A stretch of 25,730 nucleotides of DNA, from the IMG/VR virus record IMGVR_UViG_3300032268_000661, positions 1 to 25,730 of that record; one strand, written 5' to 3'. This document shows, in pieces, positions 447 through 15,748 of this stretch. Position numbers and translations under genes: made by a program. Below the pieces are notes generated by a model. The model was not told the origin of the DNA. It worked only from the letters and a program-made list of their open reading frames with translations, and did no database searches. Every line of letters starts with the position of its first letter. The stretch's first letter is position 1. The DNA comes from a virus.

Positions 447-1169
447 ATGCAGCTCAACAAACAACCAATCGAAAAACGTATCTCCCGGGCTGATGGTTGC
501 CTGGAAGTGCATAGCAGCTTCTACACCATCCAAGGTGAAGGCCCGTTCTGCGGAACCCCTTCCATGTTCGTGCGCCTTGCGGGCTGCAACCTCCAGTGTC
601 CGTTCTGTGACACGGAATACAGCGACAAGCGGACCCTGCTTGCACCCGAAGAAATACTGGCGCACATTATTGACACGATGCCCGTGGCAATTTCCGGCCT
701 TGTGGTTATCACCGGCGGTGAACCTTTCCGCCAGAACCTGACCCCGCTGTTGGAGCTACTAACGGCCCGGGGTTACTACGTCCAGATCGAAACGAATGGG
801 ACGTTGGAACCATCCACCTTCATTTATTCTTGGGACATCAGCAAGAGGCAGGGTGCCTACATTGTTTGCAGCCCCAAGACAGGCAAGGTTCATCCGTTTG
901 TCTGGGCCCAAGCGTGCTGCGCCAAGTATGTGATGGCCGCTGAAGATGTAGTCAGCGACGGTCTGCCTGTCACCGCACTGGGCCACACCGCGAACCCGCG
1001 CCTTGCCCGACCGCCTATCCTGTGGCCCAACCACATGATCTATTTGCAGCCCATGGACGCGCAGGACTACGAAGAGAACCAGCGCAACATCCAAGCGGTC
1101 CGCGAGTCGTGCATGGAGCACGGCTACATCCTGCAACTGCAAATCCACAAGCTGATTGGAGTAGAATGA
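447..1169 (+). CDS. queE: 7-carboxy-7-deazaguanine synthase (QueE)
   Basis: Radical SAM enzyme that converts 6-carboxy-tetrahydropterin to 7-carboxy-7-deazaguanine (CDG), third step of the preQ0 pathway. The 240-aa protein has the family hallmarks in order: FYTIQGEGPFCGTPSMFVRL (substrate and SAM region, about 25-44), the CX3CX2C iron-sulfur motif GCNLQCPFCDT (C47, C51, C54), and the SAM-binding ITGGEP (88-93) followed by a QIETNGT strand. The ATG at 447 is preceded by GGAGGG at 438-443. It is the first gene of the operon, and its TGA overlaps the queC ATG. The stretch after the ETNGT strand (SPKTGKVHPFVW, CCAKYVM) fits the usual QueE C-terminal half. Family assignment is firm. In phages this gene normally supplies a DNA-modification precursor rather than tRNA queuosine. 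Confidence 0.95.
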   Translation: MQLNKQPIEKRISRADGCLEVHSSFYTIQGEGPFCGTPSMFVRLAGCNLQCPFCDTEYSDKRTLLAPEEILAHIIDTMPVAISGLVVITGGEPFRQNLTPLLELLTARGYYVQIETNGTLEPSTFIYSWDISKRQGAYIVCSPKTGKVHPFVWAQACCAKYVMAAEDVVSDGLPVTALGHTANPRLARPPILWPNHMIYLQPMDAQDYEENQRNIQAVRESCMEHGYILQLQIHKLIGVE

Positions 1170-1957
1170 TGAAGAAAGCACTTGTCGTCCTTTCGGGCGG
1201 GCAGGACTCAACGACCTGTCTTTTCTGGGCGTTGCAGTTCTATGACGAGGTCCATGCGATCACGTTCGACTACGGGCAGCGGCATCGAATTGAGGTCCAG
1301 GCTGCAATGCAGGTCGCGCAGATGGCTGGCGTTATGGACCGGCACGAAATCTGCAAGGTAGGCGACCTGCTTGACAGCACCAGCCCGCTGACCAGTGGGA
1401 ACGAGCTGGAGCAATACACCGACCCGGAACAGATGGAAGCGGTGATTGGCGACCGGCGCGAGAAGACGTTTGTCCCCATGCGTAACGCTCTGTTCCTGAC
1501 GCTCGCCGCCAACCGCGCTGAGGCGCATGGAATCACGGACATCATTACTGGCGTCTGTCAGATGGACAATGCGAATTACGACGACTGCCGGGAGGTGTTT
1601 ATCCGGGCGACCGAAGCCTACATCAACACGGCGCTCGGGCATGACCACAGAGGCACGCCGCCTATCCGGATTGTGACCCCGCTGATGCACGCGACCAAGG
1701 AACAGACGGTTCACATCGCGTTTGCGAATCCGAAGTGCTGGGAAGCGTTGGCCTACAGCCACACCAGCTACGACGGCAAGTATCCGCCCACCGACATGAA
1801 CCATGCCAACGTCCTGCGGGCCGATGGGTTCGCAAAGGCCGGGAGGCCCGACCCGCTTGTGGTGCGGGCTTGGCGGGATGGTTTGATGGAGCTTCCGTCG
1901 ACCGACAACTACAGCCGGGAGTCCATGGTTGACGCCGGGTTCGGTTGGGCGGAGTAA
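1166..1957 (+). CDS. queC: QueC-like 7-cyano-7-deazaguanine synthase, zinc-site Cys replaced
   Basis: ATP-dependent enzyme of the adenine nucleotide alpha-hydrolase fold that turns CDG first into the amide (ADG) and then the nitrile preQ0. The 263-aa protein has the PP-loop SGGQDSTT (10-17), TFDYGQRH (33-40), the FVPMRNALFL segment and TGVCQMDNANYDDCR. In the C-terminal zinc site of known QueC proteins (TCYNG...CGxCxxC-LR), the aligned residues here are TSYDG (S201) and TDMNHAN (T209, N212, N215) followed by VLRADGF. All four zinc-ligand Cys are therefore replaced by Ser, Thr, Asn and Asn, although the surrounding fold and the spacing are kept. The start is ATG 1166 (ATGA overlap with queE) or ATG 1169, both behind GGAG at 1158-1161. 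The enzyme may be active without zinc, may stop at the amide, or may use another acceptor. Confidence 0.88.
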   Translation: MMKKALVVLSGGQDSTTCLFWALQFYDEVHAITFDYGQRHRIEVQAAMQVAQMAGVMDRHEICKVGDLLDSTSPLTSGNELEQYTDPEQMEAVIGDRREKTFVPMRNALFLTLAANRAEAHGITDIITGVCQMDNANYDDCREVFIRATEAYINTALGHDHRGTPPIRIVTPLMHATKEQTVHIAFANPKCWEALAYSHTSYDGKYPPTDMNHANVLRADGFAKAGRPDPLVVRAWRDGLMELPSTDNYSRESMVDAGFGWAE

Positions 1958-1960
1958 CCC

Positions 1961-2968
1961 ATGGAACAAGGTGCAGGCAACCAGTTGACGGACGCAGCCG
2001 GTGTGAAATGGATGGACATGCTGAGCGGGATATTGAACTGCTCGCTCGGGCATGGTTCTTCCGTTGTGTCAGAAGCACTTCGCGAGGTCGCAAATAGCGG
2101 CCTCGTTAACAGCTATGACAAGACAACCCTTAACGCGCAAGCGTTGATGTCCCTTCTTGGGGAATACGACAACCGATACACCTGGAAGCTACTGAATACG
2201 GGCGCTGAAGCGGTTGAGCGGGCGGTGCAACTGTGGGCAGCGGTGGTTGGCGGTCGCCCTGTAGTCGCGGTCCTCAAGGACAGCTTCCACGGGAAGAGCA
2301 TCACCATGTCCGGCATCCGGTATGACGTTCCATGGGGCAACCCGTTTGACGTTCTTACCATTGACCCGGATGGGGTCGTGCCCCATTTCGACATGCTGTT
2401 CTTTGAACCCGTCAAAGGGTGGAACGGTGAGCGTCCAGACGAAGAGAAGCTTCTGGCGTTGTGCAACGAGCGGTCCGCCATACTGGTAGCGGACGAGATG
2501 ATTACCGGCTTCGGGCGGTGTGGTCAACGCTTCCTGAGTAAGCACGCAGACATGATTATTTCCGGGAAGGGTCTGGCACAAGGGGTTCCGCTTGCGGTCC
2601 TAGGTGCACGACACGCAATCAGCCCAGCGAAGTTTGCCATCGGGTGGAACACAACCTGTGGCGGGAACAACCTGTCAGCGACGGTGGGCCTGCATGTCCT
2701 GCGCCACCTGATGCAGCACGAAGGGGAGTTGCGGAACAAGGCGGGATGGATAGAAGACCGCCTTGTGAGCATGGGGTTCAGCGCAATGGGGGCGCTGGGC
2801 TTTAAGACCATGAAGCGTCCGCATTCAGAAATGCGACCCGTGTTCGAACAGAACCGTGTAATCGCATCCTGGCATGACCCGTTCCTGCGGGTCGGCCCCT
2901 CCTTTGCAACCGTAAAGCGGGACATGGACCACCTGGAAGCTGTTCTCAGACTGGCGGAGATGCGATGA
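1961..2968 (+). CDS. Class III PLP-dependent aminotransferase-like protein
   Basis: Fold type I PLP enzyme related to glutamate-1-semialdehyde aminomutase and omega-aminotransferases. Class III motifs appear in order: SLGHGSS (28-34), LLNTGAEAVERAVQ (77-90), DSFHGK (107-112), LVADEMITGFGRCG with the PLP-ring aspartate D178, SGKGLAQG with the Schiff-base lysine K203, and NTTCGGNNLSA. The key catalytic residues are present, so it should be active. At 335 aa it is short against the usual ~430, lacking much of the N-terminal region and part of the C-terminal domain. It starts 4 nt after queC with GGAG at 1951-1954, and its stop overlaps the next ATG. It is not part of the known preQ0 pathway. Its place in the operon suggests that it makes or processes an amine used to decorate the deazaguanine. 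The substrate is unknown. Confidence 0.85.
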   Translation: MEQGAGNQLTDAAGVKWMDMLSGILNCSLGHGSSVVSEALREVANSGLVNSYDKTTLNAQALMSLLGEYDNRYTWKLLNTGAEAVERAVQLWAAVVGGRPVVAVLKDSFHGKSITMSGIRYDVPWGNPFDVLTIDPDGVVPHFDMLFFEPVKGWNGERPDEEKLLALCNERSAILVADEMITGFGRCGQRFLSKHADMIISGKGLAQGVPLAVLGARHAISPAKFAIGWNTTCGGNNLSATVGLHVLRHLMQHEGELRNKAGWIEDRLVSMGFSAMGALGFKTMKRPHSEMRPVFEQNRVIASWHDPFLRVGPSFATVKRDMDHLEAVLRLAEMR

Positions 2969-3975
2969 TGGCTGTTATCGGAATTGACATTGACGGCACC
3001 CTGTCCAAGGGCGGGGAGTGGCAGGGCGGTGACTATATCCCTGCACCGGATGCGCGGATGGCAGCACTGGTGGCGGAGCTTGCGGCACGGGGTCACCGCT
3101 TGTTCGCGTGGACCTGCCGCGCTGACTACGTTGTGTCCAAGTGGCTGGCGGAGCACAACCTCATCCAGTATTTCGAAGGGGTGAACTACTCGCCCTATCC
3201 CACCGAGAGTGGCAAGGCGAGCTTTGACTTCTACATCGGGGACGAGGCAATTCGCTGGGACGAAAACCCGAAGCGCATCCTGGAGCTGATCCACATTAAC
3301 TCTGTTGGCAAAGGCCCCGCTGACTTTGACCGGGACCATTTCTTCAGCAGCCACAACCCGAGACCATACCTCGCAGGGGTGGGCGTTGCGTATGTGGACC
3401 AGTTTGAAGAGCACTGGAAAACAGCATGGACTAGGCACCAGCAGAGCGGGAAGACTATCGCGTTCCTGACCATCTGTTCCCATGCGAAACCCTACAGCAA
3501 GTCCTTCATCCACACGTCTATCCGGGCAGCGCTGTTCCGGGAAGGCTACCTTGGGGCGTGCGACTACATCCACATCTCCAACGCGGGAATCATCCCTGCG
3601 AGTGCGGAAATGGACTACCCTTTCAACGCCTACGATTGGAACGGTGACCTCTGCACCCCGGAGGTGAAGCAATACCACATCGAAGCAATCAAGCGCCGCT
3701 TCACTGAGTGGCTGCGGATGAAAGATTGCAGCTACGACCGCATCGTCATTTATCTGCGCGAGGGTGGCAACACCATCGGAGCAGTCCGGGCAGCTCTACA
3801 GGAGTTTGAGTCCGGCGCGAGTCACCGCCCGTGGTCGACCAAAGTGACGGTCGTTGCTGCATCCGCAGAAGAAGAACATTATCCGCAGTTTGTCCAGACC
3901 CGTGACCCGGACGACTGTCTCACCAGTGCAGGCAACCTGCATCATCTTACTGTTGCAATCGGAGGACACAAATGA
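2965..3975 (+). CDS. HAD-like domain fused to ArcS-like (DUF5591-type) domain
   Basis: Two-domain protein of 336 aa. The N-terminal part (about 1-115) is HAD-superfamily-like: motif I GIDIDGTL with D8 and D10, FAWTCR (47-52), a lysine at K84 and FYIGDEAIRWDE (89-100). It resembles small HAD phosphatases. The C-terminal part carries FLTICSHAKPYSKSFIH (167-183), which fits the archaeosine synthase ArcS signature C-X3-KPY-X2-S-X2-H exactly (C171, K175-Y177, S180, H183). It is followed by ISNAGIIPASAEMDYPFNAY, matching the ArcS segment with the SPlGlVPrElE...YPa..YD pattern. ArcS attaches lysine to preQ0 in archaeal tRNA. Here the likely target is preQ0 in DNA or the free base. No PUA RNA-binding domain is visible. 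The gene is coupled to both neighbours by ATGA overlaps. The ArcS-like call rests on the motif; the substrate is inferred. Confidence 0.75.
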   Translation: MMAVIGIDIDGTLSKGGEWQGGDYIPAPDARMAALVAELAARGHRLFAWTCRADYVVSKWLAEHNLIQYFEGVNYSPYPTESGKASFDFYIGDEAIRWDENPKRILELIHINSVGKGPADFDRDHFFSSHNPRPYLAGVGVAYVDQFEEHWKTAWTRHQQSGKTIAFLTICSHAKPYSKSFIHTSIRAALFREGYLGACDYIHISNAGIIPASAEMDYPFNAYDWNGDLCTPEVKQYHIEAIKRRFTEWLRMKDCSYDRIVIYLREGGNTIGAVRAALQEFESGASHRPWSTKVTVVAASAEEEHYPQFVQTRDPDDCLTSAGNLHHLTVAIGGHK

Positions 3976-4445
3976 CATACCGTTCCAGCAAGACCTACGG
4001 CCACGAGATTGGTCTCTCGTGTTGCTTTCGTCAGTGGCGGGCCCAGAGCCATTGCCGCTTCCTGCATGGATACGCGCTGTCCGTGCATGTTGAGTTCGAA
4101 GCTACCGAGCTCGACCACCAGAATTGGGTTGTCGACTTTGGTTCGCTGAAGTCTTTCAAGGGCACCCTGGAGGACACGTTTGACCACAAGACGCTCGTCG
4201 CCGAGGATGACCCCAAGCTCCAGTGCTTCGTTGCATTGGAAGAGATTGGCCTGGCCGACATTGTGATCGTGGAGGCGGTAGGCTGCGAAGCCTTTGCGAA
4301 GCTAATCTACGACTACACCGAGGTCTGGCTGAAGGACAACGGATACGCACCCCGCGTCCGCTGCCACCACATCACGGTCCGTGAGCATGGGGCCAACAGC
4401 GCCAGCTTCTACGCACCCCTGAGCGTGGAGAACATCGCGCAATGA
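3972..4445 (+). CDS. queD: QueD-like 6-carboxytetrahydropterin synthase family protein
   Basis: Member of the PTPS/QueD family, expected to convert dihydroneopterin triphosphate to 6-carboxy-tetrahydropterin. The 157-aa protein has HCRFLHGYALSV (C28 as the catalytic Cys, H32 as a zinc ligand), WVVDFGSLK (52-60), FDHKTL (70-75, catalytic His) and VREHGANSA near the end. Compared with standard QueD, the first zinc His (AAH) is replaced by the FRQWR region and the second His of HGH is Tyr (Y34). Only one of the three canonical ligands is clearly kept. I recall this FRQWR/HGY form from alphaproteobacterial QueD-like proteins, so it looks like a subfamily rather than a broken gene. A CDG decarboxylase role (DpdL-like) is an alternative. 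ATGA overlaps join it to both neighbours. Confidence 0.85.
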   Translation: MTYRSSKTYGHEIGLSCCFRQWRAQSHCRFLHGYALSVHVEFEATELDHQNWVVDFGSLKSFKGTLEDTFDHKTLVAEDDPKLQCFVALEEIGLADIVIVEAVGCEAFAKLIYDYTEVWLKDNGYAPRVRCHHITVREHGANSASFYAPLSVENIAQ

Positions 4446-5044
4446 CCCAGGGCTTCAAGAGTGCAGCGCACATTGCCCGCCGGGAGCGGATGTCCAAAAG
4501 CATCCGCGAGCTGTTACTGGACATTGAAGACGTCCACATCCATGACGATCTGCGGGGTGGCTTGGTTGAAACCCCGGACAGGGTTGCCAAGGCATGGGAG
4601 TTCTGGACCAGTGGCTATGACATGGACCCAGCCGAGACCTTGAAGACGTTCGAAGATGGTGCGGAGGGTGTGGACGAGATGGTCGTGGTGAAAGACATCC
4701 CTGTCTATTCACACTGCGAGCACCACATGGCAGCAATCTTCGGGATCGCCACCATCGGCTATCTGCCCGACAAGCGCATCGTGGGGCTGAGCAAGCTGTC
4801 ACGTCTGGTAAACGTCTATGCTCGGCGGTTGCAGGTGCAGGAGCGCATGACCTGCCAGATTGCGGATGCTATGATGCAGCACCTTGCCCCGCTGGGCTGC
4901 GGTGTGGTCATCAAGGCGCGGCATATGTGCATGGAGTCGCGGGGCGTCTGCCAGCAGGGGCATCACACTGTGACCAGCGCCTTGCGAGGTATGTTCAAAG
5001 AAGACCCCATCGTTCGAGCTGAATTTTTGCAGCTTGCACGGTAG
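4442..5044 (+). CDS. folE: GTP cyclohydrolase I
   Basis: Converts GTP to 7,8-dihydroneopterin triphosphate, the first committed step of pterin and 7-deazaguanine synthesis. The 200-aa length is normal for bacterial FolE. Visible motifs are ETPDRVAKAW (43-52), VYSHCEHHMAAIFG with zinc ligands C92 and H95, GLSKLSRLVNVYARRLQVQE, and ARHMCMESRGV with the third zinc ligand C163, then HTVTSALRG. All catalytic and metal residues are present. The start ATG overlaps the queD stop (ATGA). It is the last gene of the deazaguanine operon and is followed by an intrinsic terminator at 5066-5092. A phage-borne FolE would raise precursor supply above the host level when the phage must modify many DNA guanines. 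Confidence 0.96.
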   Translation: MTQGFKSAAHIARRERMSKSIRELLLDIEDVHIHDDLRGGLVETPDRVAKAWEFWTSGYDMDPAETLKTFEDGAEGVDEMVVVKDIPVYSHCEHHMAAIFGIATIGYLPDKRIVGLSKLSRLVNVYARRLQVQERMTCQIADAMMQHLAPLGCGVVIKARHMCMESRGVCQQGHHTVTSALRGMFKEDPIVRAEFLQLAR

Positions 5045-9431: not shown

Positions 9432-11612
9432 TTACGGGATCTGAATTTCAATATACTGCCTTTGGAAACTTTCTAGACCATTTCTAACTGAGAATAACTC
9501 CACAAACAATTTGTCATTTCGTGCTCCAATAATAGCACTAGTTATAGTAAACGTAGACGTAGTGATGCCAGTTGTGGTGTGAAACAAAGTTCCAGTTTTA
9601 TCAAACAAACGAATAGTGACGGTCGCACCAGCTTCCGGTGTCAATGGGCCATCCACAAAGCCAACCAAAGTTCCGCCAGTCTGTAGCAATCTATTCCGCT
9701 CAGCCCATGTTACAACGATAGGCGCTGACAGGTCATTTGCAGGGTAACTTACACCATTGAATTCAATACGACCGGGAGGGAAAGGTCTTGCAGCGCGCCC
9801 AACGACGTTAACAGTCATCGGTGTTGCGCCCGCTAAATCTGAAATACCGGACCCGTTAACTGTGGTTATTTTGGCAGCAACCACGTCGGAGCTAACATAC
9901 TCTGTTGGATCACTTGCTGGGAACTCGCTCCAGAACATCACGGTTGCTCCTGCCAAATGCAGTCGCGGAACAGTGTCCAAAACGCCCCTTTTCACTGTGA
10001 CCACACTGCCTGAGATTCCGGTCACTGCCATTAGTTCATTGTCTACCTGAAGCCAACTGTTTAGGGCAACTTGGCCAAGCCCAACTCCTGCTGAAATGTT
10101 AAGAGTTGTTCCTGTAAGGCTAATATCAAATGCCAAGACTCCTGATGGTGAAAAGTTTAGAATGCTAGCTTGTTCATAGCCACTCCCATCATCCGTATAA
10201 AGAAGCCCGTTAATAGCAGGAACAACAGATGATGAAGCAGCGCCAGCAACGTAACCGACAAAAGTGTTTGCTACAATCCCTGAATCAACAGCAGCCTGTC
10301 CCATAACACGAACAAGGCTGTAATATGGAAGTTCAAACGCTATTTGATACAACGGATTACCCGGAGGACTTACAGGGTTGGCCCATCCGCTTGGAGGTGT
10401 TGCAATGTAAGCACTTGAAGGATAGCCAAAAACGTCTTGAATACACTGAATACGAACGCGGCGTGTCTTGCCGTTACCATACGCCATCCCTGTAACTCTC
10501 ATTACAAGTTCGCTCAACTGGTAGTCGGGCCAAGTGAGCTTAAAGACATCTCCTACTTTTAGGTTTCGGGCTAGCTTGTTGGCGTAAATGGTGCAGGAAG
10601 CAAGAGGCGTAGACAATGAAATAAGATCGCGTTGCCCAACCCGGGAAGCTGTCTCCGAATCTACGAAACCTTCGTAAGTGACGGTCGTTGAGTTTTCACC
10701 CCCTTGCTCAAGCAGTAACGCAATATCTTGCACTGTAAGTGAAGCAGGAAGATTGTCTGGAAGATTCCAATAATTGACAGTGACAGAATTGTTGAGCTCA
10801 CCAAAAACCGAACGCTTGAAATCATCCACCCTATCAATGTTAGATGGGTCAAGTGTAAGAAGAGAGACGGGAAAGTAATCGTTTCGAATAAGCTTCAAAA
10901 CAAACTGTCCACTTCTCCTGTCAACATAAATGACCGCATCAATATGCTGGCAGATAATTTTTAGAAAGTCTTCAATGCTCTTTTGAGTATCCCACAAAAG
11001 ACAGATCCCCATCTTTTCAGCTTTGAGGGTAGTAGCAGCGGAGGTGAATGACGCGTCGTTAATGTCAGATGAATTGTAACCCATACCCCACAACTTATTC
11101 GTTAAGCATTCACGAATGATATGAGCAGGATTCATTGCCGCTGCGGTTGTAGCTGCGCCTGTGCTGTCATAGACTGTCACGTCAATTTGGGAATTTGCGT
11201 CGTTCCATTGCGGTTCACCATCTTGCTGAACATGAATGCGCTGCACCTGAAAGTTCCAGGTCTTAAGGTAAGGGTTCATTCCAAGATACATTTGCCTTAG
11301 AACAATTGAGGCAACACCCCTGAACGCTGAAACCAGCCCCCCAAGCCTACTGAACAGGTAGGAGTTCCTTGCTTGCGTCAGCCCACCGGGCATGAAGTCG
11401 AACGTTCCTGAAACGCCGCCTTCCCGTGTATCCCCACCAAACAATTCACGTTTATCTACAGTGATCGATCCGCCTGTGCTAGCACCTGCCCACAGCAGCC
11501 TGTCGTCAACCGTCACGCGGTTTATACGGTCAATTGGACCGTGGCAGAGAACCATATGAACTCCCGCGTAATAGCGGTATCCAACTGTCTGCTCACTTGA
11601 ACCTCCGGTCAT
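9432..11612 (-). CDS. J-like tail hub / host-recognition protein, main part
   Basis: Central tail-tip protein at the end of the leftward operon. The start chosen is the ATG at 11612, which overlaps the upstream TAA (TAATG) and gives 726 aa; an in-frame ATG 14 codons earlier lies inside the neighbour. It begins with EQTVGYRYYAGVHMVLCHGP, typical of the body of phage and GTA J-like hubs. DGEPQWNDANSQIDV and RVDDFKRSVFGELNNSVTVN match the phage-tail_3-like baseplate region. The C-terminal half has beta-rich repeats and a fibronectin-like end (PFPPGRIEFNGV to FQRQYIEIQIP) that may touch the host. The hub N-terminal piece is encoded separately at 11892-12113. The gene is AT-richer than the head genes. 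Confidence 0.85.
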   Translation of the reverse strand: MTGGSSEQTVGYRYYAGVHMVLCHGPIDRINRVTVDDRLLWAGASTGGSITVDKRELFGGDTREGGVSGTFDFMPGGLTQARNSYLFSRLGGLVSAFRGVASIVLRQMYLGMNPYLKTWNFQVQRIHVQQDGEPQWNDANSQIDVTVYDSTGAATTAAAMNPAHIIRECLTNKLWGMGYNSSDINDASFTSAATTLKAEKMGICLLWDTQKSIEDFLKIICQHIDAVIYVDRRSGQFVLKLIRNDYFPVSLLTLDPSNIDRVDDFKRSVFGELNNSVTVNYWNLPDNLPASLTVQDIALLLEQGGENSTTVTYEGFVDSETASRVGQRDLISLSTPLASCTIYANKLARNLKVGDVFKLTWPDYQLSELVMRVTGMAYGNGKTRRVRIQCIQDVFGYPSSAYIATPPSGWANPVSPPGNPLYQIAFELPYYSLVRVMGQAAVDSGIVANTFVGYVAGAASSSVVPAINGLLYTDDGSGYEQASILNFSPSGVLAFDISLTGTTLNISAGVGLGQVALNSWLQVDNELMAVTGISGSVVTVKRGVLDTVPRLHLAGATVMFWSEFPASDPTEYVSSDVVAAKITTVNGSGISDLAGATPMTVNVVGRAARPFPPGRIEFNGVSYPANDLSAPIVVTWAERNRLLQTGGTLVGFVDGPLTPEAGATVTIRLFDKTGTLFHTTTGITTSTFTITSAIIGARNDKLFVELFSVRNGLESFQRQYIEIQIP

Positions 11613-11833
11613 TACTGATCCCCTGTTGCATAGTATAAACGGGCAGCAGCACAAACTTGCCTGGCCATATCACAGTCAATGGCCTCCAGCTCTTCAATGG
11701 GATAACCATCGGTAATGAACTTGTCATAGTCCAAATTGCGCAGGCGGAACCATCCTTGCGTCCCCCGCCCGCACATAAGAGCTCGCCTGATATCTGGCAT
11801 TCGGATGATAATACCTGGCGAACCTGTGGTCAT
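11612..11833 (-). CDS. Small conserved tail-tip region protein
   Basis: A 73-aa protein with ATGA coupling to the upstream micro-ORF and TAATG coupling to the hub gene. It reads IRRALMCGRGTQGWF, then LRNLDYDKFITDGYPIEELEAIDCDMARQVCAAAR. I recognise this pattern (MC..G...WF...LDY..F...G......L...D.m...v...A) from short proteins encoded next to tail hubs in many phages and prophages, but no function is known to me. It is hydrophilic and mixed helical, with four Cys and no signal peptide. Its position between two parts of a J-like hub suggests a role in hub assembly or as a small chaperone. Confidence 0.75.
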   Translation of the reverse strand: MTTGSPGIIIRMPDIRRALMCGRGTQGWFRLRNLDYDKFITDGYPIEELEAIDCDMARQVCAAARLYYATGDQ

Positions 11834-11895
11834 TTCTTTTTCCCGCCTTTGGTAGCAGGAGCAGGCTTACTCGGTTTCGGATACGGCTTCTTCAT
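11830..11895 (-). CDS. 21-aa Lys/Pro-rich micro-ORF in the hub operon
   Basis: This short frame starts with ATG at 11895-11893, overlapping the TGA of the upstream 73-aa gene (ATGA). It ends with TGA at 11832-11830, overlapping the ATG of the next gene (ATGA again). It has a near-perfect Shine-Dalgarno AAAGGAGGT ending 5 nt before its start. The peptide begins MKKPYPKPSKPAPATK and ends GGKKK. Its Gly/Lys end resembles the KKGGKK end of the upstream protein. Double coupling and the strong ribosome binding site argue that it is translated. It may instead act mainly to pass ribosomes to the next gene, or be a relic of the linker of an originally continuous hub protein. Confidence 0.6.
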   Translation of the reverse strand: MKKPYPKPSKPAPATKGGKKK

Positions 11896-12113
11896 TTTTT
11901 ACCTCCTTTCTTTCTCACAGCTTCGGTTTTGATGTCACCATACCAGACAACATTCGTCTGTTTAATCCAACGTGTCCCAAACAAGACAGGGATCGGACGA
12001 CCTGCTTCCGCGGTTGGTGATCGTACAGTGCCCAACTCGGGAGCAGTGGGCTTGGGCATTGTTGCATAGGCAATTGCAAATGCAACAACAAAAACAACAA
12101 AAAACCAGAACAT
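11892..12113 (-). CDS. Separately encoded N-terminal piece of J-like tail hub
   Basis: The 73-aa protein has one N-terminal hydrophobic segment (FWFFVVFVVAFAIAYA, about 2-17), then EAGRPIPVLFGTRWIKQTNV and VWYGDIKTEAV, ending in a basic Gly/Lys tail. The PIPV.FGTR...NVVWYGD pattern is the N-terminal signature of phage and GTA J-like hub proteins, whose next part (VGYRYYAGVHMVLCHGP) is found here in the gene at 9432-11612. It is therefore probably a split-off domain of the hub. The ATG at 12113 follows AGGAG with a 6-nt gap. A function on its own, for example a membrane-inserting tail-tip component, is possible given the hydrophobic segment. Confidence 0.75.
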   Translation of the reverse strand: MFWFFVVFVVAFAIAYATMPKPTAPELGTVRSPTAEAGRPIPVLFGTRWIKQTNVVWYGDIKTEAVRKKGGKK

Positions 12114-12122
12114 TTTGTTCTC

Positions 12123-12941
12123 CTAAACGATTGATGTTCCGTCAAACGGATTCTTTTTTGGCATGAAGGGAAACCCTCCGTGGTTTAAGATGTTGTTGAA
12201 TTTACTATTGCAAGTCCCAGCTGATCGATCACATCCTGGAAAAATTCGACATGTAAGTCCGCTGTAACCTAATTGTGAGACACGAGCAATAAGATCATTC
12301 ATTGGTCGGATAAGTGTAAGCTGGTTTCCGACATGAGCTGTGATAAAACGAAGCGTGCCGTTCATGTCTTCAAAAATCCCTGACGTAAAATAACCTGAGG
12401 CGTAACCTGATGCGACAGGCATCGTTATAACATTGTTGACCACAAGGGTGACAGGGCCGCTCACAGCCCACTGTTCTTTATTCAGGTTGCAGCCTTTGGA
12501 GTAAAGTGCATGAGGGCACGTGATCTGATACAACTGCCTCAAGCCTATACGTCGCATGGATGTGAACACACTTTCAAAAATAAAGTCAAACTGGTTCTTT
12601 TTTGGGGACACGGAAGACAAGCGCCCTTTCCATTCAATCTCTACGCCATCAGAGATTGACTTGCTGAAGATGGTAACAGTAAGGGGGAAGTCAACGGATG
12701 AAGCAAACCAACGGCGGGCGACCGGGTTATCAATTGGAAAACTAAGCGTCAAATTTTGCTTAGTCATTTCCCCTTTACCTTGCACCTCGTCACGACCGAT
12801 AGCCAAAGGTATATAATTTTCGTTTCCAAAACCTGCATTGTAGGCTTCAGCCCGATCGGAGCTGGTGACAGTGTAGATAAATGTTCCATTGTTTTCAACG
12901 AAACGATAGAGTTCTTTAACAGCGTCTCTGCCAGTTGTCAT
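12123..12941 (-). CDS. DUF2163/BR0599-type tail tip protein with Cys cluster
   Basis: Tail-tip or hub protein of 272 aa. The N-terminal part holds a beta-rich domain (FVENNGTFIYTVTSSD to WKGRLSSV). The C-terminal part has five Cys: TCPHALYSKGCNL (C142, C151) and TCRIFPGCDRSAGTCNSKFN (C231, C237, C244). The sequence ends with LNHGGFPFMPKKNPFDG, a strongly conserved ending in this family. In lambda gpL and the RcGTA hub protein, a comparable set of Cys binds an iron-sulfur cluster, so C142, C151, C237 and C244 are the likely ligands here (inferred). Its ATG overlaps the stop of the upstream distal tail gene (ATGA), and it is followed directly by the split hub. This is the usual order for GTA-like tails. 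Confidence 0.82.
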   Translation of the reverse strand: MTTGRDAVKELYRFVENNGTFIYTVTSSDRAEAYNAGFGNENYIPLAIGRDEVQGKGEMTKQNLTLSFPIDNPVARRWFASSVDFPLTVTIFSKSISDGVEIEWKGRLSSVSPKKNQFDFIFESVFTSMRRIGLRQLYQITCPHALYSKGCNLNKEQWAVSGPVTLVVNNVITMPVASGYASGYFTSGIFEDMNGTLRFITAHVGNQLTLIRPMNDLIARVSQLGYSGLTCRIFPGCDRSAGTCNSKFNNILNHGGFPFMPKKNPFDGTSIV

Positions 12942-15748
12942 TTGTCAATCTCCACCATGTTGATTGACATGGTGACGGCACGGTTACCTATCCACTGCAT
13001 TTCAATCCGATCGGTTTCAAACCTGCTTAAACCCATATAACTGATCTGGCGGACTTCCGCTAGCCCTTTCCGCAAGGCGTGAGCAAAGGTTATCAGCCAC
13101 CCTCCAAACAAATCTGCTGAAATTGATACAATGCGATTTCCTTGCCAAATCCCATCAGAAAATTCAATAACAACATCAACTCTGTCTGCATTAAAACTTC
13201 GAATGTCTAAATTAGGAACATTGATTTGAGTTCGGTTAGCGCTGATGGCGTATGCAGGCAAATCGTGTTGGAAAGTTGGCATATAGAAAAGACGCGCTGC
13301 ACCTTGCCTACGATAAAGAAAGTGCCTAATGGCAACAGATTCTTCTCCACTTTCGAACAAAAATTGATGGTTTGATTTTATTCGTGACTGGTTCCAAGGG
13401 CTTCTACTTACATAAGGCGCAAGTTCAGTGTCATAAATATCCTGACGCTGCGTGATCGCTTTAGAAAACTGACTGTTAGAATTAGGGTGTAATGTAAGAA
13501 TTTCGTATCCATTAAAATAATAACCAATTTCTTGCGCAAGAGCGCTAGCAAATCTGTCAGACATTGCAAATGGCGTAACGCTATTCACATTCGAGTAAAT
13601 GCCTTCACTGGCATTGTCAACTTTTATAAATTGAGCTGTACTACTAATGCCCATTCCGATAGCATAAATATCAACAGCCCTGCAACCATCGTATGGAGGA
13701 AGACCTGTAATCAAGTTGAATGCAGTGGTACGGGAACTGTCTAAGTTTGTTTCTGTAGCAGCGGAGAAAAACATAATGTTTTTTCGCTCATTACGGTTGC
13801 GAAAAGGTGTTCCAAAAAAGGTCACGGCTCGCGTAAATGCCCTGTAGGAATCAGTTCCGCCAAGAGAACCAATTGAAACAACCGCAGCAATAGCGGTGTC
13901 AATGTTAGCAGTAGTTGCATCAAAATAAGTCAATACGCTTTCAATTGAACCCCAAAAAGATAAACACAAGTCCAAACGAACACCGGAATTGACTACAGCG
14001 CCCCGAAGGTCTTGTAGTGCTCGCGTTAGATCTGACTTAAGAGCTGTTAACTTTGCGCTATCGCCTGCCACTGTTGATGATACTTCACAAGCAAACAAAA
14101 CAGCTAGTCTGGTGGGGTATATTTTTGGTTTAATGATATTTGCATCGAAGTTAAAATTTGAACTAAAACTTCCAATTTCAAAATCAATATCACCACGAAG
14201 TTGTGCAGCGTTAACAGGAACAATATGAGCATAGGGCCTTGCGTCAAAAGGGCTTTCAAGTGTAATACTTTTCGCACCAATAGCACTCACTCCCGACATG
14301 TTAGCAATACTGCCTACGGTTAAATTTCCCGTGTTAATTGGAACCAGTGGTGCGCCGTCAATTGGCGCTGCGTCAGGTATACTTGAAATTATTACGGTCG
14401 CTCCGCTTGTCGTTGCTGAATAATCCGGGTCTGACACAAAGCTGTTAATTGCAGCGGCAACTTGAGTTGCTGTCGTAGAATTGTTTCCCGTGTGGGAAAC
14501 AGTATACCCCATAACGGGCAGCCCGTCAATTTCAATGTTCTTGATAGTACCGCCAGGTGCAAATTCTCTAATACGACCGGTATCGCCCGTTACCAGATAA
14601 AATTGCGTTCCATCAGGCTTCCATGTAAAGCCAAATTCGTAAAAACTGAAAGACCTGCTGTATGCGTCCGCCGTGGCACCAGACAAGCTCCATGGTGTGG
14701 GAAGATTTAAGCTGAAAAATGTTCCAGGGTTGGCGCCCTTAACGACAAACAGTTTTGTTCCATCTGATTTGAACTCAAATGATGTTGGTTCTTGACTAAT
14801 TCCGCCTAGGGAGGACAGGTCCAGCGTCACACCGTTGGCAGTTGGTGTCAGCGCAGTATAGGGGGTGGTTAGAGTGTATTCCCTGATAAGATTACCCTGA
14901 CCGACAAACAATTTTGTCCCGTCAGCATTGAAGTCTATTCCAAAACCAGACCCTAAGTTCGGAAACTGAAACGAACCATTTTGATTTGCATTACCAGTCG
15001 TCCAAGGCGCAACAGGGATATATTGGTACAGAATGCAAGTCGAAGACTGTTGCGAAAGTAGAAAGAACTTACTCCCGTCAGGAATCCATGCCTGACCGAC
15101 ATAATTCTGGGAATACTGAAATGTCTGAAGTGAATCCGTCACTGCTGTTGCAGGGTTCCATGGTGTTGTCAAGGTATGTGAGATCGCATAATTCCCGGAA
15201 GCAAGAATCATTCTTGTACCATCAGGACTAAATTTAATAGTTCGCCCGAAGCTGTAGTCCGGAAAGAAAGTGACTCCAGTCGGGAAGAGTTCCTGTAGCC
15301 CCCACGGTACGGATATTGTCCCGCCTGTAATTGTAAAGGACCCTATTGCTGGAACTGAAGCAATTTTTCGAATTTGCCAATCGTCGTTATTAACAAAAGC
15401 TAGAGCAAGACTTCCAGCTCTAAAGTCTGATAAATAAGGATCCACAGGAAGATTTACTGTCGCGGTCAACGGGGTAAGGGTTTGAACGTCTGACCACATG
15501 GGCACAGCCCAATTACCACGGATATTCTGTTCGCCCAAGTTAAACGGAAACTGCCTGTTGAACAAGTTTGCGTCAACACCATAAGACAAAGTGTGCCTGG
15601 CTATTGTTCGACCAATACTTCTGCTTTCGGATCCGTCCTGTGAAGTAACGATATCCGTATAGAACTCAAACGCTTCCCGCATTTTTTCAGTCGGGGGCAA
15701 GTGTAAGAATGCAAACGACTCAAACCCCGCAATGTTATTAAGCTTCAT
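12938..15748 (-). CDS. Chimeric distal tail protein with beta-propeller and VWA-like segments
   Basis: The 936-aa protein sits between tape measure and DUF2163 protein, the usual slot of a distal tail protein of a few hundred residues. The ends (about 1-130 and 755-936, e.g. MKLNNIAGFESFAFLHLPP and RFETDRIEMQWIGNRAVTMS) look like that base protein. Inserted between them are several parts. At about 160-395 there are five blade-like repeats about 50 aa apart (FSPDGTRMIL, WIPDGSKFFL, FNADGTKLFV, FKSDGTKLFV, WKPDGTQFYL). At about 401-475 there is a phage beta-sandwich module (IEIDGLPVMGYTV). At about 543-750 there is a VWA-like fold (LAVLFACEVSSTV, GGTDSYRAFTRAV, NIMFFSAATETN) whose first MIDAS Asp is Glu. 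The insertions probably decorate the tail tip and bind host surface. ATGA overlaps join both neighbours. Base composition is AT-rich. Confidence 0.78.
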   Translation of the reverse strand: MKLNNIAGFESFAFLHLPPTEKMREAFEFYTDIVTSQDGSESRSIGRTIARHTLSYGVDANLFNRQFPFNLGEQNIRGNWAVPMWSDVQTLTPLTATVNLPVDPYLSDFRAGSLALAFVNNDDWQIRKIASVPAIGSFTITGGTISVPWGLQELFPTGVTFFPDYSFGRTIKFSPDGTRMILASGNYAISHTLTTPWNPATAVTDSLQTFQYSQNYVGQAWIPDGSKFFLLSQQSSTCILYQYIPVAPWTTGNANQNGSFQFPNLGSGFGIDFNADGTKLFVGQGNLIREYTLTTPYTALTPTANGVTLDLSSLGGISQEPTSFEFKSDGTKLFVVKGANPGTFFSLNLPTPWSLSGATADAYSRSFSFYEFGFTWKPDGTQFYLVTGDTGRIREFAPGGTIKNIEIDGLPVMGYTVSHTGNNSTTATQVAAAINSFVSDPDYSATTSGATVIISSIPDAAPIDGAPLVPINTGNLTVGSIANMSGVSAIGAKSITLESPFDARPYAHIVPVNAAQLRGDIDFEIGSFSSNFNFDANIIKPKIYPTRLAVLFACEVSSTVAGDSAKLTALKSDLTRALQDLRGAVVNSGVRLDLCLSFWGSIESVLTYFDATTANIDTAIAAVVSIGSLGGTDSYRAFTRAVTFFGTPFRNRNERKNIMFFSAATETNLDSSRTTAFNLITGLPPYDGCRAVDIYAIGMGISSTAQFIKVDNASEGIYSNVNSVTPFAMSDRFASALAQEIGYYFNGYEILTLHPNSNSQFSKAITQRQDIYDTELAPYVSRSPWNQSRIKSNHQFLFESGEESVAIRHFLYRRQGAARLFYMPTFQHDLPAYAISANRTQINVPNLDIRSFNADRVDVVIEFSDGIWQGNRIVSISADLFGGWLITFAHALRKGLAEVRQISYMGLSRFETDRIEMQWIGNRAVTMSINMVEIDK

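Follow-up and report, generated by a model that had tools for sequence, protein, structure and literature searches.

The tail-tip locus of the 25,730-base virus record analysed here (the window) is an ordinary, well-conserved split cassette with a private bridging micro-ORF. Taken as a whole, it is very probably best explained as a cassette of the Chi/YuA/RcTitan type with the plug as a chain of its own and the micro-ORF as a coupling relay. On the minus strand, a 73-aa plug is followed by a 21-aa micro-ORF, a 73-aa phrog_1196 protein and a 726-aa hub (Table 1). The initial annotation had placed the hub signature and the hub body on separate genes joined by ATGA, ATGA and TAATG, and its coordinates and translations are all correct. 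It had also regarded the split as a peculiarity of this phage and the 73-aa middle gene as an interrupter of the hub; neither view holds, as the split is how most of the plug-bearing loci examined are arranged (159 of 162 junctions) and the middle gene belongs to a conserved family.

Table 1. Features of the tail-tip cassette, with coordinates in the window.
Feature	Coordinates	Strand	Evidence
gpL-like tail hub protein, 272 aa, upstream of plug	12123..12941	-	phrog_15205 2.5e-69, phrog_778 6.5e-62; PF09356 8.4e-14
Predicted tail-tip plug / insertion protein, 73 aa, detached from hub	11892..12113	-	phrog_1180 4.3e-28; phrog_1101 positions 1-72 3.3e-10; Chi 8vjh_U 6e-7
GGAGGT, Shine-Dalgarno-like, within plug Gly-Gly codons, 5 nt before micro-ORF ATG	11901..11906	-	sequence
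ATGA overlap, plug stop / micro-ORF start	11892..11895	-	sequence
21-codon micro-ORF bridging plug and phrog_1196	11830..11895	-	ORF call
ATGA overlap, micro-ORF stop / phrog_1196 start	11830..11833	-	sequence
phrog_1196 family protein, 73 aa, five predicted helices	11612..11833	-	phrog_1196 9.7e-22; model pLDDT 89.8
TAATG, phrog_1196 stop / hub start, one base in common	11610..11614	-	sequence
Hub (J-like) body, 726 aa, without plug domain	9432..11612	-	phrog_1101 8.2e-284; PF13550; Chi 8vjh_A 2e-100; 8rk3_o 1e-86

By homology, the first gene product is the predicted tail-tip plug, or "insertion protein", of Chi/YuA-type siphophages. Residues 1–73 match the phrog_1180 profile over its full length (positions 3–78 of 78), and the plug also matches the start of the hub profile phrog_1101, its own family giving the better score. 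The protein consists of a hydrophobic helix at residues 2–18, a PKP neck, the IPVLFGT...NVVWYGD motif and a GGKK tail, with VRKKGGKK directly before the stop. The match to Chi chain 8vjh_U, already found with the single sequence, reaches 1.2e-14 with a 23-row profile. The next distinct molecule in the PDB profile search by hmmsearch was 9e7m, "Tail tip assembly protein I", a weak match to the same motif (E=0.28) in which the aligned letters are those of lambda gpI; hhalign assigns the plug–gpI comparison a probability of 8%. The plug thus weakly resembles lambda gpI, a lead and not proof. When the plug is modelled alone, the helix at residues 2–18 is the one confident element and the remainder is extended with low confidence (mostly pLDDT <70), as would be the case for a chain that needs its partner in order to fold. 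The hydrophobic N-terminus described initially is borne out, with a mean Kyte-Doolittle value of 2.48 over the first 17 residues, and a mean of at least 1.6 is reached by 96.7% of 153 plug relatives. That this helix may insert in a membrane is a reasonable idea, already proposed for relatives, since the same role has been suggested for lambda gpI and for the iris/penetration domain of RcGTA.

The plug gene sits between the gpL gene and the phrog_1196–hub pair, an order also found in RcTitan, YuA and R960, with the overlap here made to the micro-ORF instead. In YuA the plug, gp74, is annotated as a phage particle protein, whereas the phrog_1196 protein, gp75, is not. Rhodobacter phage RcTitan (Titanvirus) carries the same overlap-coupled series in gp23–gp26, comprising gpL, a 73-aa plug with a KKGGKK tail, a 67-aa phrog_1196 protein and the hub, but has no micro-ORF, the phrog_1196 start lying directly on the plug stop. 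The tip structure 8VJH, which a figure legend in PMC11945409 identifies as Chi, likewise contains a separate 76-aa plug-like chain U ("Tail assembly protein 1") and a hub chain A, although its plug lacks the GGKK tail (it ends KAKQAKK) and its hub is 1296 aa long. Lambda gpI resembles the window plug in its gene position between L and J, in its hydrophobic segment followed by PK and a PVLYG motif, and in forming a trimeric plug of the lumen. It differs in its length of 223 aa with an unresolved N-terminal domain, in the intervening gene K and in a sequence match that is not significant; the hydrophobic helix of the window plug begins at residue 2, with no long N-terminal domain ahead of it.

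Structural papers on these relatives outline how such a plug works. Three copies of gpI in the lambda tip build a tripod in the lumen below the tape measure and contact gpJ through beta-augmentation; their resolved N-terminal portion is hydrophobic and may touch the outer membrane (PMC10721106). The same paper states that phages differ in which proteins carry the tip domains. In the open state, the lambda plugs loosen and two predicted membrane helices are no longer visible (PMC11101478). The plug of T5 is part of pb3 (PMC10038345), and residues 1–46 of the RcGTA megatron form an iris that may turn into a pore (PMC7296036). The RcGTA megatron, T5 pb3 and the hubs of KL1, Ab26 and Pan1 share with the window a plug or iris domain of the same role in the closed tip, but carry it within the hub chain.

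The JBD30-like Casadabanvirus R960 (L244, 2920–3374) provides a further case, with the plug as gp51, which matches Chi 8vjh_U at 8e-19, and the phrog_1196 protein as gp52. A term search of the main text of the JBD30 paper found neither gp51 nor gp52 named. We infer that the numbering in JBD30 equals that in R960, and the plug may be missing from the JBD30 model. For JBD30-like phages, the layout predicts that the genes without an assignment that separate hub and upper baseplate gene encode the plug and phrog_1196.

Comparison with unsplit hubs supports the description of the hub as split. The window hub matches positions 76–798 of the 1405-position phrog_1101 profile and the plug covers positions 1–72 of the same profile, yet the two lie in separate ORFs with stops between them and are not an unsplit plug–hub protein. 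In KL1, Ab26 and Pan1, a single hub directly follows the gpL gene and starts with a hydrophobic helix, a PKP neck and a WYGD-like motif; "split hub" is therefore right, because these phages hold plug and hub in one protein. The fused lengths of 803 aa (KL1), 813 aa (Ab26) and 814 aa (Pan1) stand beside 73 + 726 = 799 residues in the window, and a genome-wide gene order is common to KL1, Ab26 and RcTitan. The plug and hub profiles fall within one ORF at 22 of 24 fused-plug loci (21 distinct sequences); the other two are a KL1 copy outside the hub scan (L245) and L195, in which the hub is too divergent for the profile and the ORF runs on for 642 aa past the plug. Syntenic phages with the plug fused to the hub offer a natural experiment in which tethered plugs can be compared with free ones.

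The order plug / phrog_1196 / hub is strongly conserved. From 239 loci, 162 distinct junctions were retained after dropping 73 duplicates, 2 that were too short and 2 that ran off the contig. phrog_1196 adjoins the plug at 159 of these, with its start codon on the plug stop in 149 of the 159; the three junctions without an adjacent phrog_1196 are L195 (fused), L232 and L239. At the 24 fused loci, several with short flanks, a 151-member phrog_1196 profile found nothing above 6.9 bits in a search that covered KL1 and Ab26 over their entire genomes and 7 kb of Pan1, while the same profile scores 85 bits in RcTitan and 78 bits in R960. phrog_1196 thus lies between plug and hub at 159 of 162 plug junctions, and the fused loci yielded no copy of it. 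A tentative reading, which we consider somewhat doubtful, makes it an assembly factor dedicated to detached plugs. It would hold the separate, unfolded plug chain or guide it into the hub trimer, and fusion, by tethering the plug, would make it unnecessary. In a hub tree of 79 rows that left out L195, the fused rows form one side of one branch, such that the association between fusion and absence of phrog_1196 rests on essentially one event; use of the fused clade as repeated evidence about phrog_1196 was rejected, the tree needing one change only.

The phrog_1196 model is confident and contains five helices. A Cys and a Gly are invariant in an alignment of 51 members, corresponding to C21 and G43 in the window, and C21 lies in a GxCxxGxRxWF motif. 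Solved relatives were not found, Foldseek against the PDB returning one match at E=8.5 and a second search none with Z of at least 2; fold relatives in BFVD occur among phages only. The top PDB profile matches are weak and fall on arsenate reductase-like proteins (E=0.077 and 0.43), and a Pfam search of the 51 members gave nothing convincing. In L220, the ORF after the plug encodes phrog_1196 as a tandem two-domain protein, and this form may be the reason for the 128-position length of the PHROG profile. Tail assembly chaperones are a G/GT-type gene pair between the major tail protein and the tape measure, and the RcTitan genes so labelled (gp18 and gp19) sit before the tape measure. The PHROG label "tail assembly chaperone" for phrog_1180 and phrog_1196 is not supported by their position after the tape measure and beside the hub. 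The present assignments account for a layout that carries the label "hypothetical" or "tail assembly chaperone" in many phages, its first gene being the predicted tip plug, and none of these findings overturns known biology.

The plug and the micro-ORF do end in similar Gly/Lys tails (KKGGKK and KGGKKK), as described initially. The accompanying suggestion, that a Gly-rich linker had been cut and copied, fares differently for the two. It fails for the plug, because the family usually ends this way: GGK, GGKK or GGKKK, optionally followed by a final Gly, closes 116 of the 145 distinct plug tails. As such, the first piece simply ends normally. It has some merit for the micro-ORF, the tail of which resembles a second copy of the junction. 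The window holds two junction copies, GGAGGT-A6-TGA and GGCGGG-AAAAAGAAA-TGA, and since the second (the KGGKKK end of the micro-ORF plus ATGACC) is like the single junction of RcTitan, the junction seems to be present twice. The Gly-Gly codons of the plug often also supply the overlapping gene with a Shine-Dalgarno site. At the first tail Gly, GGA is used in 45 of 116 cases versus 66 of the 634 other Gly codons of the plug gene, an enrichment with a Fisher value of 9.5e-13 (45/115, one ambiguous codon left out) that is no true probability for related sequences. A Shine-Dalgarno site as the sole origin of the Gly-Gly tail was rejected: the 4-nt core is found in only 59 of 145 plug tails, and the Gly-Gly tail is thus also kept as protein.

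The micro-ORF opens with an ATG on the plug stop and ends on the phrog_1196 ATG, the two ATGs being 62 nt apart. Its translation, MKKPYPKPSKPAPATKGGKKK (21 aa before the stop, 9 Lys and 5 Pro), has no phrog or Pfam match. The length and ends of the micro-ORF are not conserved in relatives, which was the outcome named initially as telling against it. The closest relative, one contig (L005/L009/L090) with a plug 89% and a hub 72% identical, has neither insert nor micro-ORF, and RcTitan also lacks it. On these sequences, the micro-ORF looks like a private insertion without counterpart in the relatives examined.

A functional small tail-tip protein is very unlikely, even with the GGAGGT Shine-Dalgarno-like site at good spacing and ATGA coupling at both ends: homologues were found neither by tblastn in 50,697 phage records (a short query, with the low-complexity filter on), nor by an exact degenerate DNA pattern in viral contigs, nor at the 158 other plug junctions.

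Bridging ORFs with both overlaps and more than 2 codons occur at two other junctions of the 159, in L017 (43 codons) and L228 (8 codons); the phrog_1196 start lies on their stop and their sequence is unrelated to that of the window micro-ORF. A third case, L240, has 2 codons. A bridging ORF arose in 1339 of 4000 same-length shuffles of the window filler and in 764 of 4000 random-length fillers. Since shuffles often bridge, the micro-ORF needs no selection to be explained and, given a short insert, lies within what chance can produce; these shuffles speak to the ease of bridging and not to whether the micro-ORF is used. Selection to keep the coupling has perhaps preserved it. The most likely role of the micro-ORF is to keep translation coupled across the 62-nt insert and not to supply a protein that the phage needs, and its peptide is probably without function of its own. 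Against this, the micro-ORF has the better Shine-Dalgarno-like site of the two ATGA junctions and a plug-like tail, which would fit a real peptide.

Two further origins of the micro-ORF were weighed. The stretch between the two junction copies resembles proline-rich plug necks, and the best matches of the micro-peptide among the fetched loci fall in such necks (PKPPKPASAT, 8 of 10 identical), with neck and tail colinear with the L216 plug across one long gap. A remnant of a second plug gene that kept the neck (PKPxKPxPA) and KGGKK tail in order and lost about 42 middle residues would account for this, but is unlikely: the peptide is of low complexity, the neck score is equalled by 33 of 500 composition-matched shuffles and the gapped score by 72 of 500, so that the stretch is without clear source, and its DNA is no more like the plug of the window than shuffles are (48 of 500 as good). 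On that same best local match, recent duplication of window plug DNA was rejected as the source of the micro-ORF.

It is also improbable that the micro-ORF belongs to a neighbouring gene, prolonging either the C-terminus of the plug or the N-terminus of phrog_1196 through -1 slippage in an A-run or through a single-base assembly error there. Each successive ORF does lie in the -1 frame of the preceding one with A-runs just before both stops, and in-frame N-terminal phrog_1196 extensions of 27–69 nt exist at 8 junctions (L013, L024, L057, L123, L165, L179, L015 and L230), that is, at 8 of the 12 where the phrog_1196 core begins at least 27 nt past the plug stop. However, the plugs of the two nearest relatives are also 73 aa long and end in the same tail, each junction looks canonical on its own, and no classical slippery heptamer was seen by eye in the right frame. 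A separate observation concerns a perfect, REP-like palindrome, CCCCCTTCYCGARGAAGGGGG, which lies within the plug/phrog_1196 insert of L013 (3238), L024 (3256), L057 (3166), L165 (830) and L017 (3235), and also in L118, from the same contig as L017; the in-frame cases translate it as APFPRKG.

Homology, gene order, overlaps and fused counterparts come from the present analysis, and the action of a plug-type tip is taken from the solved relatives. On that model, three plug chains would thread through the hub trimer, with their N-terminal helices closing the channel below the tape measure protein, and on receptor binding the plugs would drop out and possibly insert in the outer membrane. Stop–start overlap would allow all four genes to be translated as a chain. 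The coupling relay may have arisen through an insertion of about 62 nt between plug and phrog_1196, which brought or copied a second junction of Gly-Gly codons, an A-rich stretch and ATGA. By reading the resulting micro-ORF, the ribosome would pass from the plug to phrog_1196 and keep the coupling found in relatives. The micro-ORF illustrates how a short insert at an overlap junction could be read through by means of a bridging ORF.

Two neighbouring regions of the window were also noted. On the minus strand, 12938–15748 encodes a 936-aa distal-tail-type protein that is about 360 aa longer than RcTitan gp22 (575 aa). phrog_1082 best matches its C-terminal part (742–935), and the extra part contains, by eye, repeated SPDGTK-like stretches and a von Willebrand-like stretch. 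Before the replication genes, 447–5044 on the plus strand resembles by eye a 7-deazaguanine DNA modification cluster, with QueE-, QueC-, QueD- and GTP cyclohydrolase I-like ORFs.
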